Source: Brockia lithotrophica (GTDB taxonomy: Bacteria > Bacillota > Bacilli > Thermicanales > DSM-22653). Taken from it: a stretch of DNA of 64,000 nucleotides. Both the position numbers and the translations under genes were made by a program. Each line of letters opens with the position of its first letter. Within the stretch, counting starts at the first letter, position 1. Below are positions 27,152 through 37,608 of this stretch, piece after piece. The notes under the pieces are model-generated. The model ran no database searches, was not told the DNA's origin, and saw only the letters and a list, made by a program, of their open reading frames with translations. The DNA lies in contig PEBW01000003.1 in the NCBI GenBank assembly GCA_003050565.1, positions 151,347-215,346 of the forward strand, read 5' to 3'.

Positions 27152-27180
27152 ATTCTAGAGAAGGAAACACCCCGGCGCAA
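27152..27180 (-). promoter_or_regulatory. Promoter of engB, overlapping the lonB terminator
   Basis: On the minus strand TTGCGC, exactly 17 bases, TAGAAT. The -35 hexamer lies inside the terminator stem of the upstream gene. Confidence 0.55.
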
Positions 27181-27195
27181 AGATGCGCCGGGGTG
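27160..27195 (-). terminator. Intrinsic terminator of lonB
   Basis: A perfect 12-bp stem CACCCCGGCGCA / TGCGCCGGGGTG with a 4-base loop lies nine bases beyond the lonB stop, followed on the minus strand by TTTCCTTCT. Confidence 0.8.
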
Positions 27196-27204
27196 CCCGC
27201 GCGC

Positions 27205-28968
27205 TCAGGCCCCAAAGGCCGAACCGGTTTCCGGAAGGGCGCCGCGGTGGGGGCCCTCGCCGGACGTCGTTCGGGAATCCACGCCTTCCACGTCACCGAA
27301 GATGAGCTGAAGTGCCTCGGCCACGTGACGTACGGGGATCACCCCTCGGCGCAAGGGCAACGCCGTGTCATACGGAACGAACACCCGGCCGAGGCCCGCT
27401 TCAAGGGCGGCGTCGATTTTAGCCTTGAGTCCGCCCACGGGGAGAACCTCGCCCGTGAGGCTCACCTCCCCCGTCGCCGCCACGTCCGGTGGAATGGGAA
27501 GACGGCGTACGGCGGAGTACAGGAGAAGCACGAGGGCGAGGCCGGCCGAAGGGCCGTCCGTCGGCATGCCGCCCGGAACGTTTACCCGAACGTGATACCG
27601 TTCGGGGGTGATCCCAAAGCGGCGGAGGACGACGAGGGCGTTTTCGACGGAGGCGAGAATCAGGCTCCGCCGCCGCAAACTTCCCTGCGGCGCCCGCAAC
27701 GTCTCCTCTTCCGAAGCCCCCGCGAGGTGTAGAGAACCGCCTTCCGGCCCCGCCGGCCAGGCAACGGCTTCCAACGCGAGGACCTGCCCCACGCCGGGAC
27801 CTACGACGGCGAGGGCGTGTACGCGTCCGACTTCCGCCTGCGCGCGCCGCGGCGCCTCGGGCCGCGGCGTGAGCCGGCTCACCTCCGCAACCCAGAGGAC
27901 GTCTTCGCGCGTGATCGCAGTTCGACCTTCGACTTCCGCCAGGCTCGCCGCCAGCTCCACGAGGTTCGCGGCATCTCGTCCGGTCTGGGCGTAGCGGCGA
28001 ACGAGGGCGTAGACCTCCTCTTCGGCGGATATCCGAAGACGCCGTACGGCTCGCCCTGCGATTTCTTCGAGATGTTCGGGGCGAAGGGGACGGAAGTAGA
28101 TCTCCAGACAGCGCGAACGAAGGGCGGGAGGGAGCTCCTCGGGAAGCCGCGTCGTCGCCCCCACGAGGCGGAAATCGGCCGGCAGGCCGTTTTGAAAGAT
28201 GTCGTGTACGTGCGCGGGAATCTGCGGGTTTTTCGGGCTGTAGTACGCGCTCTCGAAGAAAACTTTGCGGTCTTCGAGCACCTTGAGCAAGCGGTTGAGC
28301 TGAATCGGATGAAGTTCGCCGATTTCGTCGATGAAGAGGATTCCCCCGTGGGCACGGGTCACGGCGCCGGGTTTGGGCTGCGGGATGCCCGCCTGCCCGA
28401 GCGGCCCGGCTCCCTGGTAGATCGGGTCGTGCACGCTCCCGAGGAGGGGATCCGCAATGCCCCGTTCGTCGAAGCGGGCGGTAGTTGCGTCGACTTCGAC
28501 GAACGGGGCGTCGGGGCGGAAAGGAGAACGGGGGTTGCGCTTCGCCTCTTCGAGGATGAGGCGCGCGGCGGTCGTCTTCCCCACGCCGGGCGGGCCGTAG
28601 AGGATCACGTGCTGCGGGTGGGGACCGGCGAGGGCCGCGCGCAGGGCGCGGATGGCGTCGTCCTGCCCCACGATGTCCTCGAGGCGACGCGGGCGCGTCT
28701 TTTCCATGAGGGGTTCCGTGAGCGAGATTTGCCTGAGTCGCGCGAGGTCTTTGAGTTCGTCCGAAGGACGAACGTCCGCAGGCGACGGGGACGGCGACGA
28801 GACCCGGGGCCGCCGCGCGAAGATCCGGGCCAAAAGCCACCAAAAGGCGATCGGGACGACAAAGAGGCCGACAACCAAGAGGGGAAAGGGAACGTGGGAA
28901 ACCCAGGCGAAGTGCCCGGCCCCCAACATGTCCGCACCCCATTTGCCGCTTCCGAACACGTCGGGCAC
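27205..28968 (-). CDS. lonB: Sporulation-associated ATP-dependent protease LonB
   Basis: Membrane-anchored Lon-type protease made in the forespore in Bacillus. Order in the 587 residues: a membrane helix at about 27-46, the AAA+ domain with Walker A YGPPGVGKTT (from 124) and Walker B LFIDE (211-215), and the Lon protease domain with the catalytic dyad S474 (DGPSAGLAL) and K515 (GGLKAKID). It lacks the long N-terminal domain of LonA. It is placed directly after clpX, as in B. subtilis, but lonA is absent downstream. The GTG start and its GGGGGGCG site lie within a long hairpin. Confidence 0.93.
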   Translation of the reverse strand: MPDVFGSGKWGADMLGAGHFAWVSHVPFPLLVVGLFVVPIAFWWLLARIFARRPRVSSPSPSPADVRPSDELKDLARLRQISLTEPLMEKTRPRRLEDIVGQDDAIRALRAALAGPHPQHVILYGPPGVGKTTAARLILEEAKRNPRSPFRPDAPFVEVDATTARFDERGIADPLLGSVHDPIYQGAGPLGQAGIPQPKPGAVTRAHGGILFIDEIGELHPIQLNRLLKVLEDRKVFFESAYYSPKNPQIPAHVHDIFQNGLPADFRLVGATTRLPEELPPALRSRCLEIYFRPLRPEHLEEIAGRAVRRLRISAEEEVYALVRRYAQTGRDAANLVELAASLAEVEGRTAITREDVLWVAEVSRLTPRPEAPRRAQAEVGRVHALAVVGPGVGQVLALEAVAWPAGPEGGSLHLAGASEEETLRAPQGSLRRRSLILASVENALVVLRRFGITPERYHVRVNVPGGMPTDGPSAGLALVLLLYSAVRRLPIPPDVAATGEVSLTGEVLPVGGLKAKIDAALEAGLGRVFVPYDTALPLRRGVIPVRHVAEALQLIFGDVEGVDSRTTSGEGPHRGALPETGSAFGA

Positions 28969-29030
28969 GGGAAAACGCCCCCCTTTATCCGACCGGTACG
29001 AGCACCAGTATCGGCAGAGGGGCGTTTCCG
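28969..29030 (-). promoter_or_regulatory. Hairpin enclosing the lonB ribosome-binding site
   Basis: On the minus strand GGAAACGCCCC (29029-29019) can pair with GGGGCGTTTTCC ending at 28970, one base before the lonB start codon. One arm contains the GGGGGGCG ribosome-binding site. A smaller imperfect stem (CCGATACTGGT with ACCGGTCGG) fills the loop. This could restrain lonB translation. Confidence 0.5.
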
Positions 29031-29063
29031 TATACCTTCTACACGATCGAACTTCTCGGGCGC

Positions 29064-30359
<1,296 letters not shown>

Positions 30360-30472
30360 GTGGACCACCTCCCTTGCCGAAAAGACTTACCCGGCCGCTC
30401 GAAAAGGACTCCCCGTCCCCTGCCGAGGTCGAGGCGACGCGCTCTCCGAACCGCCGCGCGAACCGGGGGATT

Positions 30473-32844: not shown

Positions 32845-33492
32845 ATGGTCGAAACCTTCCTCCACCGGAAGACGCCCCACCGTCGTGTGATACCCGTGGA
32901 GCACGGTCCGCCGATCGTCGTCGAGGGACCCCTCCCCCCGGAAGAACTCCGCTCCCTCCGCATGCACCCCGAGCTCGACGCCTTCCGTCCCCCCGAACGC
33001 CAGAAGGAGGCCCTCGTGGAAATTGCCGGCCTCCCGGAAGGGCGCGTGATCGTCGCCAAAGAAGGGGATACCATCGTAGGCTACGCCACCTTTCACGCCC
33101 CGGACGAGATCGAACGCTGGGCCCTCGCCCGCGACCCGCGGATCCTCGAGCTCGGTGCCATAGAGGTGTCTCCGCCGTACCGCGGGCGCGGACTGGCCCG
33201 AACGATCCTCGAAGTCGCCTTTGCCGACGAAGCTCTGGAGGAGTACATCGTCTTTACGACGGAGTACTACTGGCACTGGGACCTCGAACGCACCGGGCTC
33301 GACGTTTGGGGCTACCGCAAGCTGATGGAAAACCTCATGCGGAGCGTAGGGATGTACCCCGCGGCCACCGACGATCCGGAAATCGTAGCCCACCCCGCCA
33401 ACGCCCTCATGGTCCGCATCGGCGCGCGCGTGCCGATGGAAACGATCGAGCGTTTTGACCGCGTGCGCTTCATGCGTCGCCCGTTGTACTGA
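32845..33492 (+). CDS. acuA: Protein acetyltransferase AcuA
   Basis: GNAT-family enzyme of 215 residues. In B. subtilis AcuA acetylates and inactivates acetyl-CoA synthetase AcsA; AcuC reverses this. The N-terminus (KTPHRRVIPVEHGPPIVVEGP) and the acetyl-CoA-binding segment IEVSPPYRGRGLARTILE (about 111-128) are characteristic. ATG at 32845 follows AGAGGGGAAT. The target acsA, next to acuA in B. subtilis, is not in the window; tig lies there instead. Confidence 0.92.
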   Translation: MVETFLHRKTPHRRVIPVEHGPPIVVEGPLPPEELRSLRMHPELDAFRPPERQKEALVEIAGLPEGRVIVAKEGDTIVGYATFHAPDEIERWALARDPRILELGAIEVSPPYRGRGLARTILEVAFADEALEEYIVFTTEYYWHWDLERTGLDVWGYRKLMENLMRSVGMYPAATDDPEIVAHPANALMVRIGARVPMETIERFDRVRFMRRPLY

Positions 33493-33550
33493 AAGGTGTC
33501 GGCCACTCGCGGCCGCCGTTGGGAAATTCGCCCGTCGGGAGGGACGTGCC

Positions 33551-34255
33551 TTGCTCGTTCGGGAAATCATGAGCCGCCCCGTGTTTACCGTGCGCGCCAC
33601 GGACACCCTTCGCGAAGCGTGGGAGCTCATGCGCGACCGCCGAATCCGCCACCTGCCCGTCGTCGACGAAGGTGGGCGCCTCGTGGGCATCGTCACCGAC
33701 CGCGACCTCCGCGGTGCAAGCCCCTCGAAGCTCATCTTTCACGAAAAGGACCTCGCCCTTCTCGAGGCCCCCGTCTCTACGGTGATGAGCCAGGACGTCG
33801 AGACCGCCCACCCCCTCGACCCGATCGAAGAAGCCGCCCTCACCCTCGTGAAGAAAAAGATCGGCGCCCTTCCCGTGGTGGACATGGGGAACCTCGTGGG
33901 CATCGTCACGACGACCGACCTCCTCCGGGCCCTCGTGGAGCTCTTGCGCGTAGACACCCCCTCGAGCCGGATCGACGTCGAAGTCGAAGACCGCATCGGC
34001 GCCGTCCACGACCTGACGGGGATCTTCAAGGAACTCGGGCTCTCCCTCTCGAGCCTCATCCTCTACCCCGCAGAACACCCCGGCAGACGGCGCGTCGTGC
34101 TCCGGGTGATGACGATAGACCCCACCCCCGCGCTCCGGCGCCTGCGGGAAATCGGCCCGCAGGAGGGAATCCAGCTCCTCTGGCCCGTAGAGGCCGCGGA
34201 GGCGCCGGGGGTTCCGGAGGAGGAGACGAAGGACGCGTCGGGTGACGAGAGATGA
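33551..34255 (+). CDS. acuB: CBS-ACT domain protein AcuB
   Basis: A 234-residue regulator-like protein starting at a TTG with GGGAGGG 7 bases upstream. Two CBS domains occupy about residues 7-58 (VREIMSRPVFTVRATDTL) and 77-130 (VSTVMSQDVETAHPLDP), followed by an ACT-like domain from about 140 (VEDRIGAVHDLTGIFKEL). The CBS pair probably binds an adenine nucleotide. AcuB belongs to the acetoin/acetate utilisation operon, but its molecular task is not established. Its stop overlaps the acuC start by four bases (ATGA). Confidence 0.9.
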   Translation: MLVREIMSRPVFTVRATDTLREAWELMRDRRIRHLPVVDEGGRLVGIVTDRDLRGASPSKLIFHEKDLALLEAPVSTVMSQDVETAHPLDPIEEAALTLVKKKIGALPVVDMGNLVGIVTTTDLLRALVELLRVDTPSSRIDVEVEDRIGAVHDLTGIFKELGLSLSSLILYPAEHPGRRRVVLRVMTIDPTPALRRLREIGPQEGIQLLWPVEAAEAPGVPEEETKDASGDER

Positions 34256-35397
34256 GCGACGTGAAGCTCGTATACCGCCCCGAAGTCCTCGCCTACAGCT
34301 TCCCCGACGGACATCCGTTCACGAGCCGACGCATCGAGGCGGCCGTAGACTTCATGGAGTCCCTCGGGATTCTCCGTCCGGAAGACATCCTCCCCGGGCG
34401 CAAAGCCCGCGACGAGGATATCCTCCGCGTGCACGACCCCGCCTACGTAGAGCACGTGCGCCGCGCCTCGGAAAATCCGTACGCCGCAAGTCCCGTCTAC
34501 GGACTCGCCACGGCGGACGTCCCGGCTTTCCCGGGCATGCACGACGCCGCCGCCTGGGTCGCAGGAGGGGCGCTCGCCGCCGGAGAAGCCGTAGCAGAAG
34601 GCCGACTCGTCCACGCCTTCGTCCTCGGCGGCGGCCTCCACCACGCCCAACGGGATCACGCCTCCGGCTTTTGCCTCTACAACGACGCCGCCATCCTCAT
34701 CCACCTCCTCGCCTCGGACTACGGAATGCGCGTGCTCTACATCGACCTCGACGCCCACCACGGGGACGGCGTGCAGGCGATCTTCTACCGCGACGCTCGC
34801 GTGATGACCCTCTCCTTTCACGAATCCGGGCGCTACCTCTACCCCGGCACCGGTTTCGTGGACGAGCTCGGCGAGGGGGAGGGTTTCGGCCTTTCCCTGA
34901 ACGTCCCCCTCGAGCCGTACACGGAGGACGACTCCTACCTCGAAGTCGTCCACGCCGTCGTCCCCCTCGTCTTTCAGGTGTTTCGCCCCGACGTCGTCGT
35001 CACGCTCCACGGCGCCGACCCGCACCTCTACGACCCCCTCACGCACCTCTCCTTGAGCATCCGCCCCTTCGCGGAAGTTCCCAAACTCCTCCACGAACTC
35101 GCCCACACGTACGCCCACGGCCGCTGGATTGCCCTTTCGAGCGGCGGCTACGACTTCCGCGTCTTCCCCCGGGCATGGGCGTGGGTCTGGTCTGCCATGG
35201 CCGAACGGCCCCTCGACCCCCATACCCCCATCCCCGAAGGCTGGGTGGAGCGGTGGAAGAACGCCCTGCACGACCCCGTACCGCCCGCCGTAGGCGTCGA
35301 TCCCCCGTTTCCCCGAAACCCGCGGGCCGAGTCGATCGCCGAACGCAACCGCCGTACGGTAGCCCAGCTCCTCCATCACCTCCGCCATCGGATGTAA
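34252..35397 (+). CDS. acuC: Histone-deacetylase-like protein AcuC
   Basis: Zinc- and NAD-independent class I/II HDAC-type lysine deacetylase of 381 residues, thought to reactivate AcsA after acetylation by AcuA. HDAC motifs are clear: LGGGLHHAQRDHASGFCLYN (active-site HH and the tyrosine-side loop), YIDLDAHHGDGVQ with the zinc-binding Asp and His, and a later TLHGADPH segment with the third zinc ligand Asp. It is translationally coupled to acuB. Confidence 0.94.
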   Translation: MSDVKLVYRPEVLAYSFPDGHPFTSRRIEAAVDFMESLGILRPEDILPGRKARDEDILRVHDPAYVEHVRRASENPYAASPVYGLATADVPAFPGMHDAAAWVAGGALAAGEAVAEGRLVHAFVLGGGLHHAQRDHASGFCLYNDAAILIHLLASDYGMRVLYIDLDAHHGDGVQAIFYRDARVMTLSFHESGRYLYPGTGFVDELGEGEGFGLSLNVPLEPYTEDDSYLEVVHAVVPLVFQVFRPDVVVTLHGADPHLYDPLTHLSLSIRPFAEVPKLLHELAHTYAHGRWIALSSGGYDFRVFPRAWAWVWSAMAERPLDPHTPIPEGWVERWKNALHDPVPPAVGVDPPFPRNPRAESIAERNRRTVAQLLHHLRHRM

Positions 35398-35439: not shown

Positions 35440-37608
35440 GTGAAGCTCGTGATCGTCGCCAACCGCCTTCCCTACCGCGTGCGGCCGGACCGATCGCTCG
35501 AGCTGAGCCCGGGCGGCCTCGTGTCCGGCCTTCTCTCGTTTTTCCGCGCCGCCGGACTTCAGAAAGACGAGTACCTGTGGATCGGCTGGCCGGGAAACGA
35601 GGAGAACAACGATCCAAAACTGCGAGAGGTGCTCGCCAATCACCAGGCACTTCCCGTATTTCTCGACGCAGAAGAGGTAGAGACCTTTTACCACGGTTTT
35701 TCCAACGACACCCTCTGGCCGCTTCTCCACTCCTTTCCCTGCTGGGCGAGCTTTTCCCAAGAACATTGGAAAGGGTACGTGCGCGTAAACGAAAAATTCG
35801 CCCGGGCGGCGCTCGAGGTCCTCGAGGACGACGACATCGTCTGGATCCACGACTACCAACTCATGCTCGTTCCGGGCATCCTCCGAAGGGAGCGCCCGGC
35901 TCTCCGCATAGGCTTCTTCCTTCACATTCCCTTCCCCGCACCGGAAGTCTTCCTCCTTCTCCCTTGGGCGCGGGAGATCCTCGGCCACCTCCTAGGGGCC
36001 GACCTCATAGGCTTTCATACCTACGAGTACACGCAAAACTTCATGCGGGCGGTAACCCGAGCCCTGGGGTTCGAACACGACATGCAGTACGTCGTCCTCG
36101 AGGACCGCGTCGTGCGCGTGGACACGTTTCCCTTGGGCGTGGATTTCGCGCGCTGGAATACATGCGGGGAACTTCCCGAGGTACAGGCGGAAGAAAAGAA
36201 GCTCCGGGAAGCGGCACTCGGGCGCAAGGTTGTCTTTTCCGCCGACCGCCTCGACTATACAAAGGGAATATTCGGTCGTCTCCTCGCCTTCGAACGCTTT
36301 CTGGAAGCGCACCCGGAAACGCGCGAGAACGTCCTCTTTATGCTCGTCGTCGTGCCCTCGCGGGAACAGGTACCTCGTTACCGGGAGATGAAAGAGGAAA
36401 TCGAACGGAAGGTCGGGGAAATCAACGGCCGCTTCAGCTCCCACGGACGCATCCCCGTCCACTACTACTACCGGAACCTGTCCTTCCCCGAACTCTGTGC
36501 GTCCTACCGCACCGCGGACGCCGTCCTCGTGACGCCGCTCAAGGACGGCATGAACCTCGTCGCCAAGGAATTCGTGGCGACGCGCTCAGACCTTTCCGGG
36601 ACCCTCATCCTCTCCGAGTTTGCGGGGAGCGCCCGTGAACTCGGAGAAGCGTTCCTCGTGAACCCAAACTCCCCCGAAGAACTCGCCCGCGCTCTCGCCA
36701 TTGCCCTCGATCTCCCTGAAGACGAGAAGCGCCGCCGCCTTGCGGCGATGCGCGAGCGAATTCGCCGCTACGATGCGAGGCGCTGGGGGGAAGATTTCCT
36801 CCGCGCCCTCGCCGAGGTGTCCGGACGGCGTATCGAGCTCCGGACGCGAGTCGTGACCGAACCTCTTGTGGCGGCCTTCCGCGCTGAGTACCGGAAAGCC
36901 CAAGACGCCATCTTCTTCCTCGACTACGACGGCACGCTCGTCCCGCTCGTTCGCGATCCTTCCCTCGCTGCGCCTGATCCCGAGCTCCTCAAACTCCTCG
37001 CCTCTCTCGCCCGCCCGCGTAAAAGCGAAGTCGTCGTGATCTCCGGACGCAGCCGCGCGGATCTCGAGCGTTGGTTAGGTCAACTTCCCATCGCCCTCGT
37101 CGCCGAACACGGGCTCTGGATTCGGACGGTGGAAGGGACGTGGGAACAGGCAGCAGAGGGAGTTCCAGAGGAGCTCGAAAGGCTCAGGGGCGTGCTCGAA
37201 TTCTACGTCGACCGCCTGCCCCAGGCCTTCCTCGAGGAAAAGACGTTCTCCATCGCCTTCCACTACCGCAAGGCCGACCCCGAAATGGCGGCGGTGATCG
37301 TACCCGAGCTCGTGGACGAACTCGTACAGCTCACGGCAAATTCCCCGCTCCACGTCCTCTCCGGACACAAAGTCGTAGAGGTGCGCCCGGCAGGAATGAC
37401 CAAGGGGAGCGCCGCCCGACGTTTCTTACGCGATCAGAGCTTTGTCTTCGCCGCCGGCGACGATGTCACAGACGAAGATCTCTTTCGCGCCCTTCCCGAG
37501 ACGGCGATAACGGTGCGCGTAGGGGCAAAGCCCTCCCACGCCACCTACACCGTCCCCACGCCCCACGATCTCCGCAAAATTTTGGCGGCGTTCGTGGAAC
37601 GTCCTTGA
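35440..37608 (+). CDS. Bifunctional trehalose-6-phosphate synthase / phosphatase
   Basis: Single protein of 722 residues that can make trehalose in two steps. Residues 1 to about 470 are a GT20 synthase: IVANRLPYRV, GGLVSGLL, WIGWPG, WIHDYQLMLVPGILR and DRLDYTKGI, the glucose-6-phosphate and UDP-glucose sites. From about 490 a HAD-family phosphatase follows: FFLDYDGTLVPL with the nucleophilic aspartate, VVISGRSRADLERWL, and GDDVTDEDLF with the metal-binding acids. The GTG start follows GAGAGGAGG. Trehalose would serve as a thermo- and osmoprotectant. It is 42 bp after acuC on the same strand, possibly co-transcribed, but functionally unrelated. Confidence 0.93.
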   Translation: MKLVIVANRLPYRVRPDRSLELSPGGLVSGLLSFFRAAGLQKDEYLWIGWPGNEENNDPKLREVLANHQALPVFLDAEEVETFYHGFSNDTLWPLLHSFPCWASFSQEHWKGYVRVNEKFARAALEVLEDDDIVWIHDYQLMLVPGILRRERPALRIGFFLHIPFPAPEVFLLLPWAREILGHLLGADLIGFHTYEYTQNFMRAVTRALGFEHDMQYVVLEDRVVRVDTFPLGVDFARWNTCGELPEVQAEEKKLREAALGRKVVFSADRLDYTKGIFGRLLAFERFLEAHPETRENVLFMLVVVPSREQVPRYREMKEEIERKVGEINGRFSSHGRIPVHYYYRNLSFPELCASYRTADAVLVTPLKDGMNLVAKEFVATRSDLSGTLILSEFAGSARELGEAFLVNPNSPEELARALAIALDLPEDEKRRRLAAMRERIRRYDARRWGEDFLRALAEVSGRRIELRTRVVTEPLVAAFRAEYRKAQDAIFFLDYDGTLVPLVRDPSLAAPDPELLKLLASLARPRKSEVVVISGRSRADLERWLGQLPIALVAEHGLWIRTVEGTWEQAAEGVPEELERLRGVLEFYVDRLPQAFLEEKTFSIAFHYRKADPEMAAVIVPELVDELVQLTANSPLHVLSGHKVVEVRPAGMTKGSAARRFLRDQSFVFAAGDDVTDEDLFRALPETAITVRVGAKPSHATYTVPTPHDLRKILAAFVERP

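Follow-up and report, generated by a model that had tools for sequence, protein, structure and literature searches.

A predicted sigma-F promoter spacer that may hide the lonB Shine-Dalgarno sequence in read-through RNA from clpX in Brockia lithotrophica, and spacer:Shine-Dalgarno matching in relatives

In Brockia lithotrophica the gene lonB follows clpX on the same strand, and the question raised by this locus is which RNAs would be translated into LonB, those that run through from clpX or those that start at a promoter of its own. The locus was analyzed in a window of 64,000 nucleotides, that is the whole stretch of DNA under analysis, to which all positions refer. The two genes are located as follows:

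27205-28968, minus strand: lonB, GTG start codon at 28968, with TIGR02902 (spore_lonB) as top match.
29064-30350, minus strand: clpX, with a putative start (the open reading frame opens at 30368); the upstream gene and would-be source of read-through RNA.

The clpX stop codon TGA (29066-29064, minus strand) lies 95 nt before the lonB GTG at 28968. ClpX scores above the curated cut-offs of NF003745 (680.5 bits) and TIGR00382 (672.8 bits). LonB reaches 696.1 bits for TIGR02902, which is below the curated cut-off of 723.3 and by far its best family, and the gene order clpX-lonB is kept.

It was proposed in an earlier note on this DNA that complementary arms enclose the leader between clpX and lonB and that one of them contains the lonB Shine-Dalgarno (SD) sequence. 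These arms were recovered as a main stem of 14 bp, formed by GGAAACGCCCCTCT (29029-29016) and AGGGGGGCGTTTTC (28984-28971) with 12 Watson-Crick and two G-U pairs. The elements on the lonB side of the stem and within it are:

28971-28984, minus strand: 3' arm AGGGGGGCGTTTTC, pairing with 29029-29016.
28979-28985, minus strand: lonB SD AAGGGGG, overlapping the 3' arm.
28989-29014, minus strand: inner hairpin CCGATACTGGTGCTCGTACCGGTCGG of the fold, enclosed by the main stem and identical in the sister species.

The minus-strand fold of 29034-28966 has an energy of -35.6 kcal/mol, compared to -21.75 kcal/mol (sd 3.03) for shuffled sequences, corresponding to a z of -4.57 with none of 200 shuffles being equally stable. 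The excess is smaller for the wider minus-strand stretch 29063-28940 (z -2.17, 6 of 200 shuffles), and the plus strand at 28940-29060 is unexceptional (z -1.07, 36 of 200 shuffles). In a repeat search this was the sole inverted repeat of at least 8 nt in 28900-29100. The GTG (28968-28966) is located just beyond the main stem, inside a short outer helix of five pairs. No Rfam family was matched at gathering thresholds across the whole 64-kb window. The hairpin in the lonB leader is confirmed as real; the evidence for a lock on lonB that is built from it is computational throughout.

The sister species (G001) retains the GTG at 28968 and has lost the in-frame ATG at 28929, and a simple calculation of the pairing between SD and 16S rRNA 3' end yields -13.8 kcal/mol for the GTG versus -8.4 kcal/mol for the ATG. 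Based on the conservation of the GTG and its stronger 16S pairing, the buried SD is likely the true SD of lonB. The alternative start ATG 28929, the SD of which would lie outside the stem, was rejected as it is not conserved in the sister species and has the weaker computed SD pairing.

A promoter that starts inside the loop would, according to the earlier note, remove one arm and free the site, and a candidate promoter of the forespore sigma-F type was found right there (29035-29006), at the site of the relatives' lonB promoter. It is composed of the following elements:

29031-29035, minus strand: -35-like element GTATA, with place and spacing as the relatives' GTTTA-type element; identical in the sister species.
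29016-29030, minus strand: 15-nt spacer CGGAAACGCCCCTCT, including the 5' arm (anti-SD arm) at 29029-29016.
29006-29015, minus strand: -10-like element GCCGATACTG, typically GGCAATACTA in relatives; identical in the sister species.
28998-29000, minus strand: expected transcription start, about 7 nt past the -10 element as is usual, in the loop of the inner hairpin.

The predicted promoter of the window is thereby GTATA-N15-GCCGATACTG, and the whole 14-nt 5' arm lies inside its 15-nt spacer. In relatives, the gap between clpX and lonB contains a terminator, then an element of the type GTTTA-N15-GGCAATACTA and then lonB, and the window promoter occupies the place orthologous to this lonB sigma-F promoter. 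Its sigma-F consensus score is 18.7 in both species of the genus, and the -10 element of the window departs from the relatives' consensus at the second base. The assignment to the sigma-F type, the start point and the dependence on sigma-F in this organism are predictions made from the sequence. As the 5' arm is wholly contained in the spacer and the expected start is in the inner loop, an RNA made by sigma-F polymerase would lack this arm. For B. subtilis, Serrano and co-workers reportedly described in 2001 a sigma-F-dependent, forespore-specific transcription of lonB, which is in analogy to the forespore-specific transcription of lonB predicted here for the genus. Both sigG and another sigma factor that fits the model used for it are present in the genus, as are gpr and ytfJ, and judged from these genes the genus probably sporulates.

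We consider it probable that the lonB element acts as a translational insulator inside a promoter, by which read-through RNA would be locked and sigma-F RNA would be open. The 15-nt sigma-F spacer would carry the complement of the lonB SD. An RNA coming from clpX would contain both arms and fold, and with its SD hidden it would yield no LonB during growth. Sigma-F polymerase in the forespore would start in the hairpin loop and produce a message without the 5' arm, in which the SD would be open. Most other Bacilli separate clpX from lonB by a transcription terminator, whose place the hairpin would take in this genus, and selection would act on the RNA. The pairing of the SD arm in read-through RNA, as claimed before, was reproduced in the calculated structures: the probability of the SD being unpaired, using a 6-nt window, is 0.00 in read-through RNA, 0.21 with shuffled spacer and 0.33 in the predicted sigma-F RNA of the window species, and 0.00, 0.25 and 0.46, respectively, in the sister species. 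With a 7-nt window it is 0.18 in read-through RNA versus 0.59 and 0.63 in the sigma-F RNA of the two species. A buried SD would also be found in an RNA thermometer, in which heat opens the hairpin and LonB, as the sole Lon of the genus, is made under heat stress, and lonB is the only match to the Lon model in both genomes of the genus. The computed SD unpaired probability from 37 to 90 °C is 0.18-0.30 for the window species and 0.18-0.23 for the sister species, and with a predicted opening of at most 0.30 up to 90 °C the thermometer was rejected and is regarded as highly improbable.

The inverted repeat could alternatively be mainly the intrinsic terminator of clpX (AAACGCCCC...GGGGCGTTTT), with the covered SD as a by-product. 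A terminator precedes the lonB promoter in 81 of the 85 leaders for which the clpX stop was located, and the four leaders lacking it include both species of this genus. It is in line with a terminator function that in the genus the stretch from clpX to the lonB promoter contains no further terminator and that the G+C-rich stem closes with TTTT. However, there are four T only, followed by CCC, the arms are separated by 31 nt and the repeat is absent from the matches of the terminator scans. Moreover, those 81 relatives have a terminator as well, yet the match between spacer and SD spans families. For these reasons we judge it unlikely that termination is the main role of the repeat. A partial termination by the stem would be compatible with hiding of the SD, and a weak terminator action is possible.

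Under the preferred reading, in which the promoter spacer hides the SD of read-through RNA, the strength of the spacer:SD duplex can be compared between species, and the two species of the genus rank first and third of 123. The duplex energy tracks the G+C content (rho -0.40), so that part of the duplex strength in the genus is due to composition. It is suggestive only that the lock is strongest where the terminator is absent, because of this contribution of G+C and because two species of one genus represent one event.

The comparison within the genus encompasses two genomes, those of the window species and of one sister species (G001). The 72-nt element differs between them at 4 of 72 positions, none of which breaks a pair, compared to 158 of 587 third codon positions of lonB. 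Of the four differences, three affect unpaired bases and one turns a G-U pair of the stem into G-C; the spacer has one change in 15 with the pairing preserved. Since promoter and SD are under selection anyway, it is the conservation of the spacer that is informative. In three relatives from other genera of the same family the switch is not clearly shown by the modeled RNAs, the SD unpaired probabilities in read-through and sigma-F RNA being 0.17 and 0.00 (L024), 0.24 and 0.14 (L009), and 0.17 and 0.21 (L113).

Compensatory change in relatives had been set as a test beforehand. The lonB leaders were taken from 127 genomes among the matches listed (one search alone matched 233 of 398 genomes, about 150 of them being listed), and the 123 leaders with a promoter score of at least 16, from 33 families and 81 genera of Bacilli, were counted. 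The leaders L022, L026, L160, and L213 were dropped for a score below 16, and L019 and L210 were given manually chosen start codons. A ClpX search of genome contigs yielded mostly distant species among the matches listed; nine of its loci with lonB, one of them from a Bacillus, were scanned for promoters and left out of the counts. Using one leader per family, the duplex of the spacer with its own SD has -11.56 kcal/mol, compared to -9.49 kcal/mol (sd 0.46) if exchanged between families, and none of 2000 exchanges was as strong. As both arms are G+C-rich in G+C-rich genomes, this was repeated with scores relative to shuffled spacers, by which the composition-controlled z is -0.83 for the own SD and -0.24 for those of other families (0 of 5000 permutations). 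The expectation of the earlier note is thereby borne out at the level of families, while within the genus it is represented by one sister species, in which a single stem pair went from G-U to G-C. Taken together, the three sequence-testable predictions of its reading hold and this reading is supported.

The target of the spacer is the SD region (family-mean z -0.74, p 1e-4). No matching was found between the spacer and the rest of the leader (z 0.01) or the initial 28 nt of the coding sequence (z 0.17), and two 15-nt segments upstream of the -35 element gave values of -0.16 and -0.15, which are not significant. Long ungapped stems (score of at least 7) are present in 38% of the lonB leaders versus 14% with shuffled spacers (100 shuffles, highest value 20%). 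A further alternative is that the inverted repeat acts at the DNA level, as a regulator site at the promoter rather than as an RNA lock. In a comparison meant to reveal an effect of the RNA strand, the count of G-U versus A-C oppositions in lonB is 52 versus 34, with 41.9 versus 34.7 in shuffles, which is compatible with action at either level. The sequences and registers of the arms vary between families, unlike the site of one protein, and the spacer pairs with the SD region but not with the remainder of the leader, which makes a DNA site very unlikely.

Chance would account for the matching if the pairing followed from composition alone, with sigma-F spacers being C-rich and SDs G-rich. The lonB spacers are indeed pyrimidine-rich (C 0.40, T 0.31) and the SDs purine-rich, and five of the 33 families show no effect or the opposite tendency (positive mean z); the effect is not universal. 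Nevertheless, it survives composition-preserving shuffles as well as composition-controlled permutations and the element is conserved in the sister species, and we give hardly any credence to composition as the sole cause. Many lonB spacers open with TCCC, TTCC or CTCCC immediately past the -35 element, which may reflect a preferred register of the anti-SD or, alternatively, an extension of the promoter.

The predicted accessibility of the SD was calculated for 120 leaders from 32 families, with L020, L021, and L220 taken out as their start is more than 200 nt from the -35 element. The mean SD unpaired probability, as mean of families, is 0.24 in read-through RNA, 0.33 with shuffled spacers and 0.53 in sigma-F RNA. 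It is lower in read-through than in sigma-F RNA for 108 of 120 loci, a gap that is inflated since the longer RNA has more partners, so that the comparison with shuffled spacers is the fair one. In the latter, 79 of 120 loci and 24 of 32 families have a lower probability in read-through RNA than the mean with shuffled spacers, and the remaining 8 families do not.

Further forespore genes were analyzed with a promoter score limit of 15, by which 34 of 37 leaders were kept for sigG, 22 of 36 for gpr, 37 of 37 for spoIIR, 29 of 30 for fin and 28 of 30 for ytfJ. The sigG genes of the window species and its sister, with scores of 14.8 and 14.6, were excluded from the sigG set. In the composition-controlled test of own versus other SDs an effect was found for sigG (0 of 5000, 22 families), spoIIR (21 of 5000, 22 families) and fin (0 of 5000, 21 families). 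No effect was found in this test for gpr (4108 of 5000, 15 families) and ytfJ (2084 of 5000, 19 families); as their scanned promoters are doubtful, these two serve as controls of the pipeline and not as examples of true sigma-F promoters free of a lock. In the sister species, the spacer of spoIIR (L344) contains CCTCCCGCC, which matches GGCGGGAGG at the SD perfectly over nine bases. The genome of the window species gave no spoIIR match at an E-value of 1e-15, and fin was found in neither genome of the genus at 1e-8. Perfect sigma-F-like elements were sought in 13 genomes, resulting in 25 pattern matches, 16 of them with an open reading frame and SD in reach; the reversed pattern gave 13 matches in the same genomes, and about half of the pattern matches may accordingly be due to chance. 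Among the matches other than lonB and spoIIR, a lock is present at the sigma-F-like promoters of a ctc-like gene (L432 in G051, spacer:SD z -3.56) and of a membrane protein gene (L436 in G027, z -3.80), and there is no spacer:SD lock at L438 (z 0.55) and L416 (z 0.35), which we take to be spoIIQ and csfB, respectively.

From these comparisons we lean, by a narrow preference, toward a rule for Bacilli by which the sigma-F spacer would serve as anti-SD for a number of early forespore genes (lonB, sigG, spoIIR, fin, and possibly the ctc-like gene), co-evolving with its own SD and being strongest where a terminator is lacking. If this rule is true, the promoter sequence would guard early forespore identity at the level of translation, as RNA entering from outside would be untranslatable, and it would also decide which transcripts of a gene are translatable. 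Furthermore, the spacers of alternative-sigma promoters, which are usually deemed neutral filler, would carry information. The lock itself would be a simple and testable design for tight conditional expression.

Locks of this kind have precedents. In the fold-back inhibition of IS10 and IS50, the SD of the transposase is covered in read-through RNA and not in RNA from its own promoter, the difference being that these are mobile elements and lonB is a developmental gene. In phage T4, the long early RNAs of the genes e, soc, 49, and I-TevI hide the SD, and late promoters located within the region coding for the 5' strand give rise to late RNAs that are translated, as was shown experimentally (PMC3014915; PMC2988022). 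An SD that is hidden in a long RNA and freed by an internal promoter is what is predicted for lonB. The T4 cases differ in being phage genes with phage late promoters and experimental proof, whereas the lonB lock is computational. For sigG (spoIIIG) of B. subtilis, a large hairpin of 20 or more pairs was predicted to block translation of read-through RNA from spoIIG, and this hairpin cannot form in RNA from the gene's own sigma-F/sigma-G promoter (PMC5942855). The sigG case has the same regulon and the same logic as the lonB lock, but it is one gene with a prediction from earlier work, and the lonB lock sits after clpX without a preceding terminator in the genus. If the rule holds, this long-known case would exemplify a more general protection of forespore genes from stray transcription. 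In the literature searched, with most subscription journals outside of it, no report turned up of an SD lock at lonB, spoIIR or fin, or of a co-evolution of spacer and SD across Bacilli. Thus, the kind of mechanism is already known from sigG and T4 e, and the inclusion of lonB, spoIIR and fin as well as the co-evolution are apparently new as far as this search extends.

In the surroundings of the element, some further observations were made. The Lon model is matched in both genomes of the genus (G000, G001) solely through lonB, and the other four genomes of the order have a LonA over the cut-off beside lonB. LonB may be the sole Lon of the genus, with ysxC right behind it (window 27205-27124). 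Between these two genes the following feature was noted by eye:

27160-27195, minus strand: terminator-like hairpin with a T-rich tail.

This hairpin is not among the matches of the pattern scan for terminators. The idea that ysxC depends on read-through from clpX through lonB was dropped because the terminator-like hairpin and a TAGAAT box come after lonB. On the plus strand, positions 32845-35397 of the window contain acetyltransferase-like, CBS-domain and deacetylase-like open reading frames, with family matches for the CBS domains only, a run that presumably resembles acuABC. It is followed at 35440-37608, also on the plus strand, by a long open reading frame that by eye looks like a trehalose-phosphate synthase fused to a phosphatase.
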